From the NCBI RefSeq assembly GCF_001425175.1, contig NZ_LMDV01000014.1, positions 1 to 64,000 on the forward strand: a stretch of 64,000 nt of DNA. The letters are read 5' to 3'. The notes beneath the pieces are model-generated. The model did no database searches and had not been told where the DNA came from. It saw only the letters and a list, made by a program, of their open reading frames with translations. Source of the stretch: Nocardioides sp. Root1257 (GTDB taxonomy: Bacteria; Actinomycetota; Actinomycetes; Propionibacteriales; Nocardioidaceae). Positions 56,655 through 64,000 of the stretch are shown in pieces (the stretch's first letter is position 1; every line of letters starts with the position of its first letter). The translations under genes were made by a program, and so were the position numbers.

Positions 56655-57080
56655 CTAGGCCTCGGAGCGGGTCAGCGTCTCGACCAGCAGGTCGAGGTCG
56701 ACCGACTCGGTGCCCTCCGGCACGACGGCGAGCGTGCGGCCGAGGAAGGCTCCCAGGTCGCGGGTCGCCAGCTGGGTGACCAGCCGTCCGTGCGGCGAGC
56801 GGAGCTCGAGCACCACGCAGGCCCGGCCGTACTCGTCGATGCTCGGCGAGAGCTGTACGTCGCCCTCGCCGGCCGGCTCCGTCATGCCCTGGAGCAGCAG
56901 GTCCCGGCCGATCAGCCAGCGCACGGTCTCCGTCGGCTTCCCGAACACCACCTCGACGGCCCACGGATCCGCGGGGTCGTAGCCGAGGACGGCGGGGAGG
57001 TCGATGCTGCGGCCCCGCGCGTCGAGGCACTGGAGTGCGACGGGCTGGGAGAGGGTCCGCGAGGTCGGCTGCTGGTTCAC
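56655..57080 (-). CDS. SsgA family sporulation/cell division regulator
   Basis: A 141-residue actinobacteria-specific protein. LDLP-VLGYDPADPWAVEVVFG, VRWLIGRDLLLQGMTEPAGEGDVQLSPS and VVLELRSPHGRLV follow the SsgA-like (SALP) pattern of a trimeric WhiA-like beta fold that helps place or remodel septa in streptomycetes. GTG 57080 is the start. The C-terminal helix contains EGTESVDLDLLVETLTRSE. Confidence 0.88.
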   Translation of the reverse strand: MNQQPTSRTLSQPVALQCLDARGRSIDLPAVLGYDPADPWAVEVVFGKPTETVRWLIGRDLLLQGMTEPAGEGDVQLSPSIDEYGRACVVLELRSPHGRLVTQLATRDLGAFLGRTLAVVPEGTESVDLDLLVETLTRSEA

Positions 57081-57178
57081 GCAGAGGAGACGGAGGAGCG
57101 TCCGACTCGTGACGCACCTGGCGTGCCCCGAATTCGGGACCGGCCCGTCGGTAGGCTAGAGTCTGCGACCGCTACAGA

Positions 57179-57250
57179 GGGCGATTGGCGCAGTGGTAGC
57201 GCGCTTCGTTCACACCGAAGAGGTCACTGGTTCGAACCCAGTATCGCCCA
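57179..57250 (+). tRNA. tRNA-Val (CAC), likely integration site
   Basis: Acceptor GGGCGAT/ATCGCCC, anticodon stem CTTCG-CGAAG around TTCACAC with anticodon CAC, T-arm GGTTCGAACC. CCA not encoded; the DNA after the discriminator base reads CGCACG. The gene content changes immediately downstream, as at many tRNA attachment sites. Confidence 0.93.
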
Positions 57251-57262
57251 CGCACGTTTACG

Positions 57263-57295
57263 CAGGTCAGGCCCGGTTTTGCCGGGCCTGACCTG
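57263..57295 (+). terminator. strong hairpin after tRNA-Val(CAC)
   Basis: CAGGTCAGGCCCGG and CCGGGCCTGACCTG form a perfect 14-bp stem with a TTTTG loop, 13 nt after the tRNA. No T-run follows the stem. Most likely the transcription terminator of the tRNA; it may also be inside the att region of the element. Confidence 0.75.
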
Positions 57296-57298
57296 TTT

Positions 57299-57370
57299 CC
57301 GGGGAACATACGGGGAACAAGACCCGCCGCTAGTTCCCCGCGTTGTTCCCCGTGCCGAGGCGGGGAACAA
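57299..57370. repeat. cluster of five GGGGAAC repeats near element end
   Basis: GGGGAACA occurs at 57301 and 57312 (direct), as GTTCCCC at 57334 and TGTTCCCC at 57344 (inverted), and GGGGAACA at 57362. The density within 72 bp, in the first non-coding stretch after the tRNA, resembles integrase or excisionase arm-binding sites. The 57251-57430 gap holds only this and the hairpin. Confidence 0.5.
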
Positions 57371-57430
57371 GCAGCGGGTGAGGTCTCTCACGTCCGGCCC
57401 GTTGTCGGTGGTCGGTCATAGCGTCCGGTC

Positions 57431-57670
57431 ATGGCGTCCCGAACCAACACGACACGCGGAATCCAGATCGCCCAACTCGACGGGCGCGCCCGCTACCACC
57501 TCAACAACAAGTCGCCCCACGCGGAGACGATCGCGGCTCTCCTCGACATCGAGGCACCGGTCGACGTGATCCGGGAAGCGGCGGACTCGGCGCGGGCGCA
57601 CTACCTCGCCGACCCCGCGCTCCGGTTTCAATCGGGCGACGTCGCCCGCCTCCTCGACGACCTTCTGTAG
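57431..57670 (+). CDS. small hypothetical protein of the integrated element
   Basis: A 79-residue protein, not recognised. It has a basic N terminus, a short beta-like stretch (IQIAQLDGRARYHL) and two predicted helices (AETIAALLD, VIREAADSARAHYL). ATG 57431 follows a G-rich region with GTCCGGTC. It is the first gene past the tRNA and points away from it. Confidence 0.55.
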   Translation: MASRTNTTRGIQIAQLDGRARYHLNNKSPHAETIAALLDIEAPVDVIREAADSARAHYLADPALRFQSGDVARLLDDLL

Positions 57671-57702
57671 ATACAGGAAGGCGTCGATCGTGTAGATACA
57701 CG
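57665..57702. promoter_or_regulatory. pair of TGTAGATACA dyads
   Basis: CTGTA-GA-TACAG at 57665-57676 and CGTGTA-GA-TACACG at 57689-57702, centres 25 bp apart. The first overlaps the stop codon of the upstream gene. Two-base centres exclude hairpins, so these look like two protein-binding dyads in the convergent gap (57671-57730), or a pair used for an end of the element. Confidence 0.45.
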
Positions 57703-57730
57703 GACCCACTGGTCCGGTTGGCTCGGGACG

Positions 57731-58576
57731 CTACGGCTTCGCCGGATTGCCCCACACGGAGAAGATCGACTGCACGGCAAACCATGTGCTCTGTCGCCAA
57801 CCGTCCACAACGTCGGTCAAGGCCCGATCATCAGGGAATCCGGACTCACGGAGGACGAGCTCGATCTCCCATGTGACCTCAGTATCCGTACTCCCCTCGG
57901 GCGGGTCGTACTGATAGGCGATCACGTCCGCGTCGTCGCCTGACCTTGGCCCAACCATCCGGCGTGCCGTGCCTCCGTCGGAACCCCAGTAGAAGATCGT
58001 GGGCGTCCAAGCGGCCACGAGTAGCCGCCGGTGTTTGTCGACGTTCGATGCGTGCTGAATCAATCGCAGGGTCGAGAACTTGAACTCGTCGTCGAGGGTC
58101 GCAGGGTCTGACGTTCCCGGATATTGCTCCGCCCAGTAGAACGGCTGAACGAAGCGGAGGGCGTCTTGTGCGCGCTGACTGAAAGTGCCCTCGGGCATGT
58201 TCCGTCGGGGGGCGAAGAACTTCTCGAACTCCTGTCCGTTACGCCTCACGGGGAACGCAGGTGCTGCCTCGTGTTGCTCGGTCCACTCCCCGTCGAAGTC
58301 TTGCCGTGCAAGGGCGTAGGCGACCGAGTCCAGAGCGGAACGCAGGTTGTGGGCGACGTCGCCGATCACTGCACTTAGGACGGGCGGTATCGGTTCGGTC
58401 ATGACGAGTCGGACCCGCTGCCAATCGTCTTCGTCGGTTGCCTCGTACCTCACCTCGAACGGGCCGCGATCCTGATACTCGGCGATCCTTGCCTTCAAGT
58501 CGGCGATGTGGGCGTCGGCGCGCTCGATCTTCACGCGCCACGGTTGGTCGGGAAGCCACCAGTCGGGATCGGCCAC
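57731..58576 (-). CDS. hypothetical protein, phage-associated
   Basis: A 281-residue protein not recognised by family. It starts at a GTG giving ADPDWWLPDQPWRVKIER, with an early coiled coil (ADAHIADLKARIAEYQD); the centre has a helix with IGDVAHNLRSALDSVAYALAR and a RLIQHASNVDKHRRLLVAA segment, giving conserved His pairs. Similar orphan proteins occur in prophages and islands, so a defence or moron role is possible. No enzyme motif is certain. Confidence 0.6.
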   Translation of the reverse strand: MADPDWWLPDQPWRVKIERADAHIADLKARIAEYQDRGPFEVRYEATDEDDWQRVRLVMTEPIPPVLSAVIGDVAHNLRSALDSVAYALARQDFDGEWTEQHEAAPAFPVRRNGQEFEKFFAPRRNMPEGTFSQRAQDALRFVQPFYWAEQYPGTSDPATLDDEFKFSTLRLIQHASNVDKHRRLLVAAWTPTIFYWGSDGGTARRMVGPRSGDDADVIAYQYDPPEGSTDTEVTWEIELVLRESGFPDDRALTDVVDGWRQSTWFAVQSIFSVWGNPAKP

Positions 58577-58664
58577 GGCGGAAGCGTACGACCGTTGGGT
58601 CGGGCGACCGCCCCTCCGGCGCGTCGTGCCGTCGCCCATCGGCGGCGGCACGAGGATTGACCGC

Positions 58665-59468
58665 ATGCGAGCGCGACCACCCGACCCCCGTGCCCGCCTT
58701 CTCGCCCGGACGGGAAACAGACGGTCGAGATCTCTGACCGCTCCATCCGCCCCGGAGAAGGCGCGGCCATGGTGGCTCGAACACCTCGGTCTCGTCCTGA
58801 CCGCGTCGTTCTTCGTCCTCCTCGCCTTCCGTGTCCTCGCGATCTCGAGCTTCGACACGACGACCGCTAAGGCAGTAGTGCAGAACGGCGGCACGGCGAC
58901 TCTCGCCTTGGGCATGGCGTTGGGGTCCGCGAGGCTCGTCGCGATGGCGATTGTGTTCGTCCTCGTCGGCTACTACGCCCTGGCGGCGTACGACCGCGAA
59001 CTCGGGCCGATCGGGCTCCATTGGTTGTACCTCTTGATACCGGCGATCCTGCTTGTCCCGTGGTGGACCGTCATCGCCGCGTCCATACTCGTCGGCACAG
59101 GGTGGTTGCTCGGAGGTCGCCGATCTCGCGCCGGGATACTCGCGCCAACCTCGATCGTGTCGTCCGGGGTAGACCGGGCCGTCCTGTGGTCGGCCTGCCT
59201 AACAGTCCTGTTCGTCATCGCATCCGCAGACTCGTGGCTTCCCGCCGAGCGAATCGAAGTAGGCGACCAAGCGGCATTCACGGGCTATGTGCTCGGCGAA
59301 CGCGACGGACGGGATCTAGTCACCCTCGACGCGACGGGTAGTCACGGAGTCCGTGCCTACCCGATCGACGACGTGACTCGCTCCTACTGCGAACCCCAAG
59401 GGGGCCTGTTCTTCGACACGCTCCTGACGGTCTTTCGGGCCGACACGTACGCCTCCTGCCCTGACTGA
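58665..59468 (+). CDS. hypothetical membrane protein of the element
   Basis: A 267-residue protein with about four hydrophobic segments (residues ~38-60, 85-110, 120-145, 170-190) after a basic, Pro-rich start, then a ~75-residue extracytoplasmic-type domain. Not recognised. ATG 58665 is used. It points against the phage-like genes on both sides, like a cargo gene. Confidence 0.55.
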   Translation: MRARPPDPRARLLARTGNRRSRSLTAPSAPEKARPWWLEHLGLVLTASFFVLLAFRVLAISSFDTTTAKAVVQNGGTATLALGMALGSARLVAMAIVFVLVGYYALAAYDRELGPIGLHWLYLLIPAILLVPWWTVIAASILVGTGWLLGGRRSRAGILAPTSIVSSGVDRAVLWSACLTVLFVIASADSWLPAERIEVGDQAAFTGYVLGERDGRDLVTLDATGSHGVRAYPIDDVTRSYCEPQGGLFFDTLLTVFRADTYASCPD

Positions 59469-59477
59469 GCGGGGACG

Positions 59478-60014
59478 TCAGGTCAGGCCGTGCCACCGGA
59501 CCGACGTCAACGCCTGACGGACCGCCCGCCGTGTCGCGACCTCCGTCGGGAATGTCCGAGCCGACCCGTACGCGCCGAGACCGACGACCGCGACATGGTC
59601 GAGGGTCGCCCGCACGACCACCCGCGCCCCGTCGAAACCGGTCGCCGTCTCCGTCGCCCTGAACCCCACCGACAGAGGCAGCGACTCCCGCACGCCCGCA
59701 CGGGCAACCACCCGACCGGCCTCGGTCGCCTCGTCGAACCGGAGACCCGCGACCAGACCGGCGCGCTCCTCGACCAGATACACGACCGACCCGATCACGA
59801 TCGACGGGTCGTGATCGAGCACGACGGGATAGACCCGGTCGGAGGCAGCGTCCGTAGCGAACGCCCCGTATACGAACCGCTCACCCTGCGGGTACTCCGT
59901 CATCCGGGACACCTCGCCGTACGGGACGACGAGACCGACGTAGAACCCCGGCGACGCACGTCGCAGCTCGACGCGGGTCGGGACGGTTGTCGGGATGCTC
60001 AACAGATGAGTCAT
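59478..60014 (-). CDS. HK97-type prohead protease-like protein
   Basis: A 178-residue protein with the prohead serine protease fold: GLVVPYGEVSRMTEYPQGER, FVYGAFATD, VVLDHDPSIVIGSVVYLVEE, the Ser block ESLPLSVGFRATE, and LDHVAVVGLGAYGSARTF. The His (in LDHD) and Ser (in LSVGF) are present, but the third position, usually Glu in an EVSLV-like strand, reads His in LDHVAVV, so activity is uncertain. No capsid or portal gene lies nearby. ATG 60014 begins the fold. Confidence 0.72.
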   Translation of the reverse strand: MTHLLSIPTTVPTRVELRRASPGFYVGLVVPYGEVSRMTEYPQGERFVYGAFATDAASDRVYPVVLDHDPSIVIGSVVYLVEERAGLVAGLRFDEATEAGRVVARAGVRESLPLSVGFRATETATGFDGARVVVRATLDHVAVVGLGAYGSARTFPTEVATRRAVRQALTSVRWHGLT

Positions 60015-60101
60015 GGGTGCGCCTCCTCGGGGCACGGATCACATGGGATCGCGTGACCCCTACCGAGTCGCCGCTCCGACCTGCCCCCTACCGAGGCGCG
60101 G

Positions 60102-60869
60102 TCATGCCCCCATGATCCGCCCCTCGCGCTCGTCGATCCAGACCTTCACCCGCTCCGACCGGGGAACTCCTTCGACAACCTCGGCGGCGTGCATCTCGGC
60201 CCGTGCCCGCCGCCGCTCCTCGATCTCGATCTCGGCGACCGCCATGCATCCGGCACACACCCGAGGCGGTGCCTCGACCGGCGACCCCGACAGGTCGCCG
60301 ACTGCCTGACCGGCGACGTCGGAGCGGACCTCCCCGCAGATCTCGCACCGGTTCAACGCATCGCGGACCGCCTGACCACGACGCGCACCGTCGGCCTTGA
60401 TCCGGGCACGCGCCTCGTACATGGCGAACCAATGGGTCACGAGCTCCGGGTCGCGCCCCGACAACGTCACGGGGAACCCGTCGACCGCCAACACCTCCCC
60501 GTAGACGTCGGAATCCGGAGTCTCGAACCGATCTTCGGGCCACGCCCGCATGACCTCGGCATCCCGCTCCGCCGATCGGAAGTAGTACGGGCGGACGTTG
60601 CGGGGAATGAACAACGGGTTCCGTGCCCCGCCCGCCGTCGGCTCCTTGTTCCAGTCACGCGGCCACAACGACAGATCCCCACCGGTCTCCGCCCACGTCT
60701 CCAGGTCGTCCTCACGGAGACGCCGGTACCTCGCGTCCTCCTCGTCCTTCCGGGCCGTCAGCGTCCCCGTACGCGCCTCTTGCGGCCTCCTGCGGGCAGT
60801 CGGTGGGCTCTCCTCGACCTTCGTCGTCCTCGGCCTCGTCGTCGCCTTCGTCGCCGTCTTCTTCTCCAC
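60102..60869 (-). CDS. hypothetical protein with a Cys4 zinc-finger
   Basis: A 255-residue protein. Basic N terminus (EKKTATKATTRPRTTKV), then an acidic-basic helical region, and a Cys4 site formed by NRCEICGEV and RVCAGCMAV about 30 residues apart. GTG 60869, with GGAGAGG upstream. Not recognised; it is probably a phage or element DNA-processing or packaging accessory. Confidence 0.6.
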   Translation of the reverse strand: MEKKTATKATTRPRTTKVEESPPTARRRPQEARTGTLTARKDEEDARYRRLREDDLETWAETGGDLSLWPRDWNKEPTAGGARNPLFIPRNVRPYYFRSAERDAEVMRAWPEDRFETPDSDVYGEVLAVDGFPVTLSGRDPELVTHWFAMYEARARIKADGARRGQAVRDALNRCEICGEVRSDVAGQAVGDLSGSPVEAPPRVCAGCMAVAEIEIEERRRARAEMHAAEVVEGVPRSERVKVWIDEREGRIMGA

Positions 60870-60884
60870 GATCAGACACCTCTC

Positions 60885-61139
60885 CTAGAAGATGCGCGGT
60901 CGCTCCGACCGCGCCGGAAACACACGCCAACCGACACGGTCACCCGCGCCCGTCAGCGACAACCAGACCCGACGCCGCACCACCGCACCCGGCAACCCGG
61001 ACGCCGCGCACGACTCCCACCGGGCCATGACCTCGCCGGGATCAACCCGCAGGACAAGACCCACGGACACACACCACCGGGCATCCGCCGGCACCGGAGG
61101 AACCCGACGACCAGGACGACGCCGATCAATCCCGACCAC
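60885..61139 (-). CDS. small hypothetical protein of the element
   Basis: An 84-residue frame that starts with GTG immediately after the TAG of the upstream gene on the same strand. It contains RRVWLSLTGAGDRVGWRVFPAR, compatible with a small beta domain. Tight packing between neighbours on the same strand supports it; the Arg/Gly-rich composition leaves doubt. Confidence 0.45.
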   Translation of the reverse strand: MVGIDRRRPGRRVPPVPADARWCVSVGLVLRVDPGEVMARWESCAASGLPGAVVRRRVWLSLTGAGDRVGWRVFPARSERPRIF

Positions 61140-61586
61140 CTACCTCGCCGCCTTCCACGACGGATCATCCGGAGGCGGCACCCGACACGACGGACACACG
61201 AACGCGAACAACGTCGCCATGCCCTCACCCAGCACCACGAGCGCCGACGAGTCACCACGACGACCGCACAGGTCACAACGCTTCCGGTCCGCGACCTGAA
61301 CGACCTTCGGCAACCAACACGCCGCACACCAGATCCGCCCCGGCCTCGCCAACAACCCGTAGACCGGGCGCGGCGACGACCCGACAACATGACGGCACCC
61401 CGTCAACCACCCGCGACCGAACCGCCACACCGACAACGCGGCACGCACCGACTCGACCTCCGACGTGTAGAAGACCGGGATCCCGAGCTCGTCGGCGATC
61501 TCGCGGAGCGTCTCGTCGACCTGATCCGCCGCCGCCTCCGACTGCTCCGTCCGGAACACGTCGCGCAGACCGTCCGCGTCAGACAT
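61140..61586 (-). CDS. hypothetical zinc-ribbon protein of the element
   Basis: A 148-residue protein. The N-terminal 55 residues form an acidic helix (AAADQVDETLREIADELGIPVFYTSEVES) and the C-terminal part holds two Cys pairs, WCAACW/RCDLCGRRG and CPSCRVP. Possible nucleic-acid-binding or helicase-accessory role. ATG 61586 is used rather than an upstream start 15 nt away. Divergent from the small membrane gene at 61.65 kb. Confidence 0.55.
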   Translation of the reverse strand: MSDADGLRDVFRTEQSEAAADQVDETLREIADELGIPVFYTSEVESVRAALSVWRFGRGWLTGCRHVVGSSPRPVYGLLARPGRIWCAACWLPKVVQVADRKRCDLCGRRGDSSALVVLGEGMATLFAFVCPSCRVPPPDDPSWKAAR

Positions 61587-61650
61587 GACGACCCACGCCA
61601 ACTAGACGACCTTCACAGATCGCCCGACACGACGCCCCAACCGAACTACC

Positions 61651-62010
61651 GTGCGAACCGTGATCCTCCCCGACGGGCTCTACCTGATCGCGTTCGTCGC
61701 GATCGTCATCGTCGCGGGATCCTTCGTCCTCTGGTTCGCCGTGACCGGTGCCCTCGTCGCCCTGTCCGAGTGGGCGCTCTCGCCGTTCATCCCCGCCGTC
61801 CGCCGTCGCCGCGACGACAAGCGGGCCAGACGGCAGGCCGAACTCGATCGCGAACAGGAACGACGGCGCGAGGCATGGCGACAGAAGTTCCCCGAGATCT
61901 ACAACCCCCAGACCACGACACGACCCGTCGACCCCGACGAGGCGGAGACCCCAGCCGTTGACGAGTGGTCCGTCATGATCGAACGCCGAGACCGAGACCG
62001 CGACCACTGA
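61651..62010 (+). CDS. small membrane-anchored protein
   Basis: A 119-residue protein: one or two hydrophobic segments (LYLIAFVAIVIVAGSFVLWFAVTG) followed by a long basic coiled-coil-like helix (DDKRARRQAELDREQERRREAWRQ) and a proline/acid tail. Not recognised. Divergent from the zinc-ribbon gene; convergent with the 62.1-kb gene after a 128-nt gap in which nothing is seen. Confidence 0.55.
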   Translation: MRTVILPDGLYLIAFVAIVIVAGSFVLWFAVTGALVALSEWALSPFIPAVRRRRDDKRARRQAELDREQERRREAWRQKFPEIYNPQTTTRPVDPDEAETPAVDEWSVMIERRDRDRDH

Positions 62011-62138
62011 CGGGACGCCGCCGTTTTCTCTACGCCGCCGACGCCGCCAGCACTGCTCGCCCTGCGGCGATACCCCCCCGGTCGAGAATCTCGACGACAA
62101 CAGACCCGAGTCGGTTGAGGTCGTTCGAAGTCGGCGGA

Positions 62139-62456
62139 TCATCGCTGATCACGGGCGGCGCGGTCGACGAGGTCGCTCAGTGTGTTCTTGTTGTCCGCGA
62201 TCTCGGCGTCGAGGAGCGCGATCCGGGCGATCCGGTCCTCGTCTGTCGTCGAGCTGAAGCGGAGTTCGGTGCCGTCCCACGAGATCGCGGCGCGGTCGGC
62301 TTCCCATGTCTGCCAGATCCCGGCACTGACCGCGAGCCGTTCGAGAGCGCCGAGGGCGTCGATCAGGTGCTCTTCTTCGACGCCGTCGGGGCCAGCGGCG
62401 TGGATCAGTTGGGTGACGGCGCGGCGGAAGAGGTGGTCGGGGAGTCCGGGGCTCAT
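62139..62456 (-). CDS. hypothetical protein downstream of RepA-like ATPase
   Basis: A 105-residue mostly helical protein (VTQLIHAAGPDGVEEEHLIDALGALE and IALLDAEIADNKNTLSDLVDRAA). GAAAGG 8 nt before ATG 62456 supports the start. Not recognised; its position after the ATPase suggests a replication accessory. The palindrome-rich region at 62.51-62.69 kb lies between them. Confidence 0.6.
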   Translation of the reverse strand: MSPGLPDHLFRRAVTQLIHAAGPDGVEEEHLIDALGALERLAVSAGIWQTWEADRAAISWDGTELRFSSTTDEDRIARIALLDAEIADNKNTLSDLVDRAARDQR

Positions 62457-62510
62457 GGGCGTTCCTTTCGGTCGGTGCCGTCGGATTCGGGCGGCTGAAA
62501 TCGGGAGCAT

Positions 62511-62559
62511 GGGCACCTGTCCGCATCTATAGAGATGCGGACACTGCGGACAGGTGCCC
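62511..62559. promoter_or_regulatory. nested inverted repeat after the RepA-like gene
   Basis: GGGCACCTGTCCGCA (62511-62525) pairs perfectly with TGCGGACAGGTGCCC (62545-62559). Inside, TCCGCATCT and AGATGCGGA pair around ATAG. It starts two bases after the ATPase gene ends and shares the CCTGTCC/GGACAGG core with the palindromes inside that gene. It may act as terminator, operator or replication origin element. Confidence 0.6.
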
Positions 62560-62560
62560 C

Positions 62561-63760
62561 TCATGTGCTCGGGACCCCCTGTCCTCGACCTGTCCCGGAC
62601 AGGTCGTCAGGCGGTGGGTTGAGGTCGGGGAGGACAGGTGTCCCGGACAGGTTCAGCGGGATCAGATCGTCAGACCTGTCCCGGACAGGTTTCGGGAGGA
62701 TCTTCCGGAGGCGGAGAGCGTCGGCGAGGTCGTTGGTCGAGTAGCCGATTCCGGCGTCGCGGAGGGCGGCGCGGACCTTCGTTCGACCCCAGTCGTCGGG
62801 GATCTCCAATCGGTCGAGGGTGTCGAGGATCGCCGAGACCTTCGCGTCCTGTGCGGCTCGGAACGGGTCGCCTGCCGCCGTGTGACGGAGGCGGGGGTCG
62901 GTGCGGCGGGTCAGGGTCAGCCGGTCCTCGGCGAGCGGGAACCGGTGCGCAGCGCATTCGAGGGTGATCGTCGACTCGTTGACCTTCGAGAGTCGCCACA
63001 CGGCGTCGACGTCGCCCTCCTTCGCCGACCCGCCGCGCATCCCCCGGGTGTGGTCCTTGCCGGTGTGGTCGAGTCGGATCAGCGCGATCCCGGCTTGTTT
63101 GAGGGCGAGGCCGGTACACCGGTAGACGGCGTTCCATGTGTCGTTCGCGTTCTCCTCGCCGCCAACGGCACGGGAGAGGGTGTCGATCACGACGACCTCG
63201 CACCCGTAGTGCTCGACGTGGCGTAGTAGGTCTGCGCCGCCGGTCGGAGTGTCGAGCTTCGCGAGGGTCGGGAACGACAGATAGACGAGGCCGTCCAGGG
63301 CGGCGGGGCTCTGGCCCATGTCGATCAGTCGGGTCCGGACGTCGCCGCGAGGGTCATTCTCGAAGTCGACGTAGAGAACCCGACTCCGCTTCGTCGGGTA
63401 ACCGAACAGGTCGCCGCCTTGAGAGATTGCGACCGCGACCTCTAGCGAGAGAAGGCTCTTCCCGGCTTTCGCGGGACTGAAGATCGCGACGTGTCGCCGA
63501 GCGGGGAGGATCGGGTAGGCGATCCACTCCTCTTCGCTCTCGTCGGCGAACAACTCGAACCAGTCGAGGCGGGGGTTCAGCAACGGCTCGGGGGTGTCGG
63601 TGGACGCGGACTGTCCGTCGTCGTACATGTCGGCGGGCGGTTCGTTAGCCTCCGGATCCGGTGGGAGCGCATCTTCAGGCGGGACGCCGTGGGGATCGAT
63701 CTGCCAGTCGGGGGCGTCGTCGTAGGTGGTGCCCCACGAGAACCCCGCCTCGTCGGTCAC
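62561..63760 (-). CDS. RepA-type AAA+ ATPase (AAA_25 helicase)
   Basis: A 399-residue protein with a RecA/RepA-like hexameric helicase core from ~70: IFSPAKAGKSLLSLEVAV (Walker A), RVLYVDFENDPRGDVRTRL, EVVVIDTLSRAVGGEENAND (Walker B region), and LIRLDHTGKDHTRGMRGGSAK. The N-terminal ~65 residues are acidic and low-complexity. The C-terminal end is proline-rich and is coded by the ACCTGTCCCGGACAGGT palindromes. Family members start replication of plasmids, phages and integrated elements. GTG 63760 overlaps the stop of the upstream gene. Confidence 0.8.
   Translation of the reverse strand: MTDEAGFSWGTTYDDAPDWQIDPHGVPPEDALPPDPEANEPPADMYDDGQSASTDTPEPLLNPRLDWFELFADESEEEWIAYPILPARRHVAIFSPAKAGKSLLSLEVAVAISQGGDLFGYPTKRSRVLYVDFENDPRGDVRTRLIDMGQSPAALDGLVYLSFPTLAKLDTPTGGADLLRHVEHYGCEVVVIDTLSRAVGGEENANDTWNAVYRCTGLALKQAGIALIRLDHTGKDHTRGMRGGSAKEGDVDAVWRLSKVNESTITLECAAHRFPLAEDRLTLTRRTDPRLRHTAAGDPFRAAQDAKVSAILDTLDRLEIPDDWGRTKVRAALRDAGIGYSTNDLADALRLRKILPKPVRDRSDDLIPLNLSGTPVLPDLNPPPDDLSGTGRGQGVPST
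62588..62690. repeat. ACCTGTCCCGGACAGGT palindrome cluster
   Basis: Two perfect copies (62588-62604 and 62674-62690) and a partial copy (CCCGGACAGGT near 62642) in the last ~130 bp of the RepA-like coding sequence. Each is a 17-bp odd-centred dyad. With the related dyad at 62.51 kb they make four clustered sites, an iteron-like arrangement. Confidence 0.65.
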
Positions 63761-64000
63761 AGGGTGTCCTCGGCGGCGACCGCCACGGCTGCCCGTCGTT
63801 CGAGGCGACGGAGTCGGACGATCTCCGGGTCGTGCATCCGGACGACCGACGCGGCGACGTACACCTCGTCGAGATCCGCGTAGATACGTGCCGCCTGACT
63901 CATCGGCACGACGGGAAACCGGTCCTCGGGGTCGAGAGCATCGAGCCGACGGCGTGCGTCCTCTTCACGTCGACGAAAGTTCTCGGCGAGACGACCGACG
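63757..64000 (-). CDS. hypothetical protein, 5' end beyond the window
   Basis: The last ~80 residues of a protein read on the minus strand, running off the right edge. It includes RRREEDARRRLDALDPEDRFPVV, then SQAARIYADLDEVYVAASVV and a basic-leucine-rich helix LRRLERRAAVAV. The stop overlaps the start of the RepA-like gene (GTGA), so the two are cotranscribed. No family is recognised. Confidence 0.6.
   Translation of the reverse strand, partial: VGRLAENFRRREEDARRRLDALDPEDRFPVVPMSQAARIYADLDEVYVAASVVRMHDPEIVRLRRLERRAAVAVAAEDTL

Follow-up and report, generated by a model that had tools for sequence, protein, structure and literature searches.

A candidate replication origin in an integrated element

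In Nocardioides sp. Root1257, a cluster of palindromic repeats followed by a hairpin is located where a helicase gene ends. We read this site as the probable origin from which a small integrated phage-like element replicates, with the helicase as its initiator. We give this reading, which is drawn from sequence comparison, a probability of about 80%. The letters of the array follow the tail of the adjacent replicative-type helicase and the hairpin lies beyond, so the site is best explained as the origin of that helicase. An earlier note on this DNA had suggested an origin that is bound by the ATPase or a partner and overlaid on coding sequence. That idea gains comparative support only: the array tracks the C-terminal domain of the ATPase, whereas binding and replication are inferred.

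The window, by which we mean the whole 64,000-nucleotide stretch that was analysed, contains most of an element of about 8.9 kb that sits at a tRNA-Val gene and runs from 57213 through 64000 and on to contig position 66101. A repeat match identifies the left attachment repeat, 39 bp on the forward strand at 57213-57251, where tRNA-Val(cac) (57179-57251) has its 3' end; the second copy falls beyond the window, at contig position 66063-66101. Within the genus, many matches to this repeat stop at the end of the tRNA and some extend past it. A tyrosine integrase gene (contig position 64584-65903, reverse strand) adjoins the far repeat copy, and a domain match identifies an HK97-type prohead protease at 59478-60035. 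The element also holds open reading frames (ORFs) without known function. We infer that it may be a phage satellite.

Several other functions were not recognised. Among the scanned ORFs, which are part of those in the element, there was no match to a terminase, portal, capsid or ParA/ParB-like protein, nor to a separate gene for a RepC iteron-binding protein or a RepB' primase. No primase was recognised in the element by a scan that did not include every small ORF. A search for RNA families in 57000-64000 returned only the tRNA at 57179 above threshold.

Architecture of the site

The palindrome ACCTGTCCCGGACAGGT is present as perfect copies at 62588-62604 and 62674-62690 and as a copy with two mismatches at 62636-62652, the last of which is overlapped by an extra half-site, GGACAGG, at 62632-62638. 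A lone half-site CCTGTCC is located on the forward strand at 62578-62584. The reading frame ends at 62561, and thus all three palindromes lie within the last 130 bp of the gene, which confirms the positions given previously for a palindrome occurring twice perfectly and once partially at the end of the coding region. The same is true of the CCTGTCC core that had been placed in a 15-bp inverted repeat beyond the gene, whose arms (62511-62525 and 62545-62559) are 100% complementary.

These repeats are neither expected by chance nor dispersed through the genome. With up to three mismatches allowed, ACCTGTCCCGGACAGGT has six matches in the 64-kb window (three places, each counted on both strands) versus 0.37 expected, and this number was reached in none of 100 shuffles. 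When the centre base is left free and up to two mismatches are permitted, the only occurrences in the 5.49-Mb genome are the three places in the window. The half-site CCTGTCC/GGACAGG is found nine times in 62516-62689 and 21 times across the whole window. The two perfect copies are spaced 86 bp apart and are read in different frames, indicating that the repetition belongs to the DNA and not to the protein.

Sequence and folding support a hairpin at 62511-62559 that carries half-sites in its outer arms (62516-62522 and 62548-62554) and an inner palindrome with the tip ATAG. Folded as single-stranded DNA, this strand has a predicted energy of -20.7 kcal/mol (z -6.5), and no run of T nucleotides follows the hairpin. 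The downstream gene (62139-62456, reverse strand) is of unknown function and has no match in Pfam or PHROGs. A start at 62456 is preceded by AAAGGA, and a longer frame begins at 62564; the start at 62456, which we infer to be the one used, would place the hairpin between the genes.

There is no AT-rich stretch near the site, where the AT content in 25-nt steps reaches at most 48%. The DnaA box TTGTCCACA, the only such box sequence used, has no match with one mismatch or fewer near the site, and its two matches in 62001-82000 are both more than 11 kb away.

The helicase-initiator and its C-terminal domain

The gene that enters the array (62561-63760, reverse strand) codes for a protein of 399 amino acids with a RepA/RecA-like AAA_25 core (Pfam, 2.8e-26), a three-helix C-terminal domain and a proline-rich tail whose coding sequence continues through the array. 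The nearest solved relative is RepA, the hexameric helicase of RSF1010, both by profile comparison (1g8y, E 1.8e-14) and by Foldseek (1nlf as the best match), and the Walker lysine K101 is invariant in the 81 aligned rows of the family. Judging from its sequence and structure model, the product is an AAA_25 helicase of the RSF1010 RepA type; 5'-to-3' helicase activity and a hexameric state have not been shown.

The C-terminal domain comprises residues 299-354 (62699-62866, reverse strand) and is proposed to be the iteron reader on the basis of the structure model and its association with the repeat sequence. The model places helices at residues 299-317, 326-335 and 342-354 with a confidence of at least 90 over most of the domain, and the tail that follows is weakly predicted. 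The codon for R326, a residue that becomes important below, occupies 62783-62785. Foldseek returned no match to the fold of this domain at E of 0.001 or less, and the best VIA-align score (Z 5.8, to FurB) is under the level at which the tool advises trust. Without a reliable fold match, a description of the domain as helix-turn-helix-like is a mere guess from the presence of three helices.

The same genome codes for two other AAA_25 proteins above the Pfam cut-off (L153 and L154, located at C10:161159-161608 and C9:523554-524066), and neither matches the family profile. One of them has TCGACGA five times in one stretch, and the other has no heptamer present at least five times.

A family of related loci

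An exact 17-mer search of whole genome and viral collections yielded 13 array loci, of which 11 are distinct (L018 repeats L008, and L025 repeats L007). Five of the 29 genome matches were within arrays (L018, L020, L025, L031 and L041), in records titled Nonomuraea, Streptomyces, Amycolatopsis, Phytohabitans and Labedaea, as were eight of the ten viral matches, the exceptions being L004 and L006. Lone copies of the 17-mer are common and were attributed to chance: L029 has four scattered half-sites, and the remaining 23 genome matches have two or three. Loci without arrays were dropped, apart from the search with the family profile, which covered every locus retrieved. A Pfam scan covering nine of the 11 distinct loci plus phage mu1/6 found AAA_25 in ten of ten proteins. 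The L007 protein matches that of the window, L020 contains only the end of the gene, and the proteins of the array loci have a common C-terminal pattern around GRD.

Protein searches enlarged the set to 92 non-redundant loci, with the viral scan contributing the best 80 of 330. There were 110 loci with profile hits, two of which had fewer than 350 nt behind the domain and four of which lacked the domain end, leaving 104 that were usable and, after removal of 12 duplicates, the final 92. Alignment A4 includes 81 of these as rows, and in 69 of them a heptamer occurs five or more times. Several of the loci are closely related to one another, and counts are therefore also given after thinning to less than 90% or less than 70% identity. 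Genome searches show these helicases to be rare: 5 genomes out of 394 in the taxonomic class have one, as do 4 of 198 in the taxonomic family (both counts including the genome of the window) and 7 of 295 in one other genus. Searches of a plasmid collection gave matches (36, 1 and 17 records), none of which covered 80% of the query.

Relatives differ at their N termini, where 28 of 84 have a Prim-Pol module and 29 of 84 a DnaB N-terminal domain. No nuclease domain was found in the 84 relatives or among the ORFs of the element that were tested.

The array occupies a constant place in the family. In the 450 nt that follow the C-terminal domain, a heptamer array exceeding all 50 shuffles is present in 78 of the 92 loci, and the other 14 have no significant array. 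A heptamer reaches at least five copies in 78 of 92 array windows, whereas elsewhere in the same loci 41 of 1093 windows do so, and the array window surpasses every other window of its own locus in 76 of 92 cases. Arrays are retained in 64 of 76 loci after thinning to below 90% identity, in 43 of 52 below 70%, and in 68 of 81 once the loci found through the repeat itself are excluded. As a control, we examined the 3' ends of the genes for seven phage RepA-like helicases (BFK20 gp43, Hashim76, Dove, Upyo, NBR1, Jflix2 and Coffee, hand-picked from 652 records) that have an AAA_25-type core but do not match the C-terminal profile significantly, and in all seven no heptamer exceeded four copies. 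With neither a profile match nor an array, these proteins were rejected as family members.

Whether the region codes for protein varies among relatives. In 30 of 92 loci the stop codon follows the C-terminal domain by less than 60 nt and in 48 by at least 200 nt, and the arrays persist in either case. This bears on a check that the earlier note had named, whether relatives retain the palindromes as the end of the protein drifts: they retain an array in the same position. The note had not foreseen that the iteron sequence itself differs between elements (the heptamers include CCTGTCC, CCTGCCC, GGGACAC, GGGAACC, ACGTTTC, GATTCCC, CGCGTCC, ATGCCCC and others) or that many relatives carry a further box. 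In L005, L010, L046, L050 and L051 the frame crosses the array into a cysteine-pair (zinc-ribbon-like) tail, and thus the array there encodes a proline-rich linker inside the protein.

Repeat sequence follows the C-terminal domain

The differences among repeats are correlated with differences in the C-terminal domain and not with those in the helicase core. Across 69 loci, repeat similarity is related to C-terminal identity once core identity is controlled for (partial r 0.488, permutation p 0.0005), whereas the value for core identity, controlled for C-terminal identity, is -0.002. For pairs with less than 60% core identity, the relation between repeat and C terminus persists (0.263, p 0.0005). 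Residues 326, 327, 342, 345, 323 and 330 rank highest of 323 columns and are located at or beside the starts of the second and third helices. Residue 326 is the strongest, and is again first in both thinned sets.

This signal can be stated as a simple pairing. At least five copies of CTG(T/C)CC are present in 21 of the 23 loci with Gly-Arg (GR) at residues 325-326 and in 1 of the 58 without it; the corresponding counts are 18 of 20 versus 0 of 32 after thinning to 70%, and 10 of 12 versus 1 of 58 without the loci found through the repeat. Exceptions are L104 and L117, which have GR and few such repeats, and L091, which has PR and carries them. R326 occurs without G325 in four loci, three of which (L093, L101 and L137) carry other repeats. 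A loose pattern for the class with Gly-Asn (GN) does not discriminate, being met by 20 of 20 loci with GN and 47 of 61 without. A further residue/repeat pairing was noticed in L049 and L085, which have GAR at the specificity position and GGGACAC (GTGTCCC) repeats.

Some relatives appear to have swapped their C termini. The L010 core is 81% identical to that of L141, whose repeat is ACGTTTC, whereas the C termini of the two are only 40% identical. The C terminus of L010 is instead 58% identical to those of L005 and L012, whose cores match its own at only 18-19%, and all three loci carry CCTGTCC. Similarly, L070 and L071 have cores that are 95% identical, C termini that are 52% identical and different repeats (GGGACAC and CGGCACA), and L046 and L097 have values of 77% and 38% with the repeats CCTGCCC and ACCTCCC, the L097 array being weak (p 0.04). 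On a tree of the core, which was a quick one with long branches, the paired trait requires nine changes, four of them on well-supported branches. The four independent pairs on these branches agree, which is too few for significance. The comparison shows that the C-terminal domain and the iterons travel as one unit, both in inheritance and in exchange, and this unit is the predicted specificity cassette.

A hairpin and a conserved box in relatives

A hairpin with a TA tip and at least seven net pairs is found in 70 of 92 loci, compared with a mean of 3.05 (range 0-7) in 20 shuffled sets, and in 43 of 52 loci after thinning. In 31 of the 70 loci it lies inside the reading frame. Its shape is kept rather than its sequence, as is a feature of the stem-loop located 3' of the initiator gene in pRN1.

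Many relatives also have the box AAACC(C/G)CAGGTCA, which is present with no more than one mismatch in 42 of 92 loci versus 0 of 460 shuffled regions, and in 14 of 52 loci after thinning. Of the 42 loci, 40 have the box on the same strand as the gene; it precedes the hairpin in 30 of 31 and lies a median of 100 nt behind the C-terminal domain (42 loci). It is missing from the window, where no sequence comes within four mismatches. The box is alike in loci with different repeats, and so the iteron reader is probably not its binder; the partner is unknown. The tests for both features were defined after some of the same loci had been viewed, and the shuffles permute dinucleotide blocks, so the iteron palindromes are also broken in them.

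A model for initiation

Co-variation leads us to infer that the three-helix C-terminal domain of the helicase would bind the palindromic ACCTGTCC half-sites, probably with two C-terminal domains per palindrome. The bound domains could then collect helicase subunits into rings at the origin. The TA-tip hairpin may be exposed and serve as an entry or priming site, by analogy with the ssi hairpins of RSF1010. Priming would be carried out by the N-terminal module where one is present, whether a Prim-Pol or a DnaB-type domain. For the element studied here, in which no priming module was recognised, the host or a helper phage would presumably supply this function. The exchange of cassettes further suggests that each element would start solely its own origin, and this mutual exclusivity, like replication from the site, is an inference.

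Alternative explanations

The palindromes might instead be operators through which the C-terminal domain, or a separate regulator, controls the helicase operon or downstream genes. Dimeric regulators typically use palindromic half-sites, and there is a gene start downstream. We nevertheless regard this explanation as unlikely because the sites occupy the 3' end of the gene, in many loci within a frame that continues for at least 200 nt past the domain, and because they co-vary with a domain that is fused to a helicase. The sites could still be both origin and operator. It is very unlikely, in our judgement, that the helicase protein merely happens to bind a site for partition, packaging or excision. 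The element resembles a phage satellite in its integrase and prohead protease, and such elements carry packaging sites, but the co-variation is with the helicase's own tail, and no terminase or ParA/ParB-like match was present in the part of the ORFs tested.

Repeats and a stem-loop with a conserved tip also resemble the nick sites of rolling-circle origins, and one source relates that another group has proposed rolling-circle replication for pRN1 (PMC4234260). However, the adjacent initiator is a RepA-type helicase, and the lack of a nuclease domain in the 84 relatives and the element ORFs tested leaves no candidate among them for a Rep nuclease that would nick the TA-tip hairpin between its flanking repeats, making this reading extremely unlikely. 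We see next to no room for the view that the DNA has no function of its own, with the repeats reflecting low-complexity coding and the hairpin a transcription terminator. It would suit the proline-rich tail and the GC-rich region, yet the perfect copies are in different frames, no shuffle reached the number of palindrome matches in the window, and the persistence of arrays whether or not the region codes contradicts the part concerning the array. A terminator is likewise disfavoured by the absence of a T-run in the window and by the many relatives whose hairpin is within the frame.

Relationship to known replicons

SaPI Rep belongs to a different class of helicase than RSF1010 RepA. The organisation of the SaPI and PICI rep-ori regions is nonetheless similar to that of the origin proposed here. 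PICI origins are immediately 3' of the initiator gene (PMC6092414), the C-terminal domain of SaPI Rep recognises iterons directly downstream (PMC7581432), and both belong to small, integrated, phage-dependent elements. The location of the iterons is a feature that the site in the window shares. In contrast, the iterons of PICI origins form two sets with an AT-rich region between them (PMC6092414), an arrangement that this site does not have. The SCCmec initiator helicase Cch2 also uses its C-terminal domain to bind repeats, in a putative origin that lies downstream of its operon, where here such binding is inferred; Cch2 is a different, 3'-to-5' helicase and has a separate polymerase-primase pair (PMC7581432).

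RSF1010 divides the work among RepC, which reads the iterons, RepA, which unwinds, and RepB', which carries out priming at stem-loops (PMC4234260). The site in the window resembles this oriV in its RepA-type helicase, its iterons and its nearby stem-loop. Whereas these three proteins of RSF1010 are separate, the iteron reader proposed here and the helicase form one polypeptide, which also includes a Prim-Pol in 28 of 84 relatives. The same source describes an essential stem-loop 3' of the pRN1 initiator gene that is conserved in shape and not in letters. The pRN1 initiator is also a multidomain protein with a C-terminal DNA-binding domain, a role that we only propose for the present protein. 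It differs in being archaeal, in using an SF3 helicase where the core here is RepA/RecA-like, and in the absence of iterons.

Our searches of the open-access literature by motif listed titles that had no connection with phage origins, and those by subject listed no description of the site; an earlier description is not excluded. The site is also not described in the available parts of reports on actinomycete ICEs (PMC3218068) and extrachromosomal mycobacterial prophages (PMC7157519).

We lean, with little more than even confidence, towards a broader proposal in which the reading as an origin extends to a compact family of replicons in actinobacterial genomes, phage mu1/6 and viral contigs. In such replicons, the priming module, RepA helicase and iteron reader that are separate in RSF1010 would be fused in one protein, whose gene would have the protein's own origin located at its 3' end or spanning that end. 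The last conserved residues, about 55 in number, and the DNA behind them would form an exchangeable cassette with a readable code, in which Gly-Arg at 325-326 goes with CTG(T/C)CC and Gly-Asn, mostly from one clade, with TTCC-type repeats. The invariant box and the TA-tip hairpin would mark a shared start machinery. If this is true, a few residues would predict which origin such a helicase starts, and would allow that choice to be changed. Natural pairs whose main difference is the cassette, such as L070/L071 and L010/L141, would allow a direct test of how replicons evolve new, non-interfering origins. There would also be a compact vector replicon, and a probable origin for mu1/6, related actinobacterial prophages and viral contigs.

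Streptomyces phage mu1/6 (NC_007967) offers a close parallel. Its gp21, annotated as a DNA helicase, has the same core and C-terminal domain, behind which the array ACCTGCCCCGGGCAGGT and a CTCTAAAG hairpin follow in a layout like that of the window. The phage protein differs in having a DnaB N-terminal domain, and its half-site contains TGCCC instead of TGTCC.
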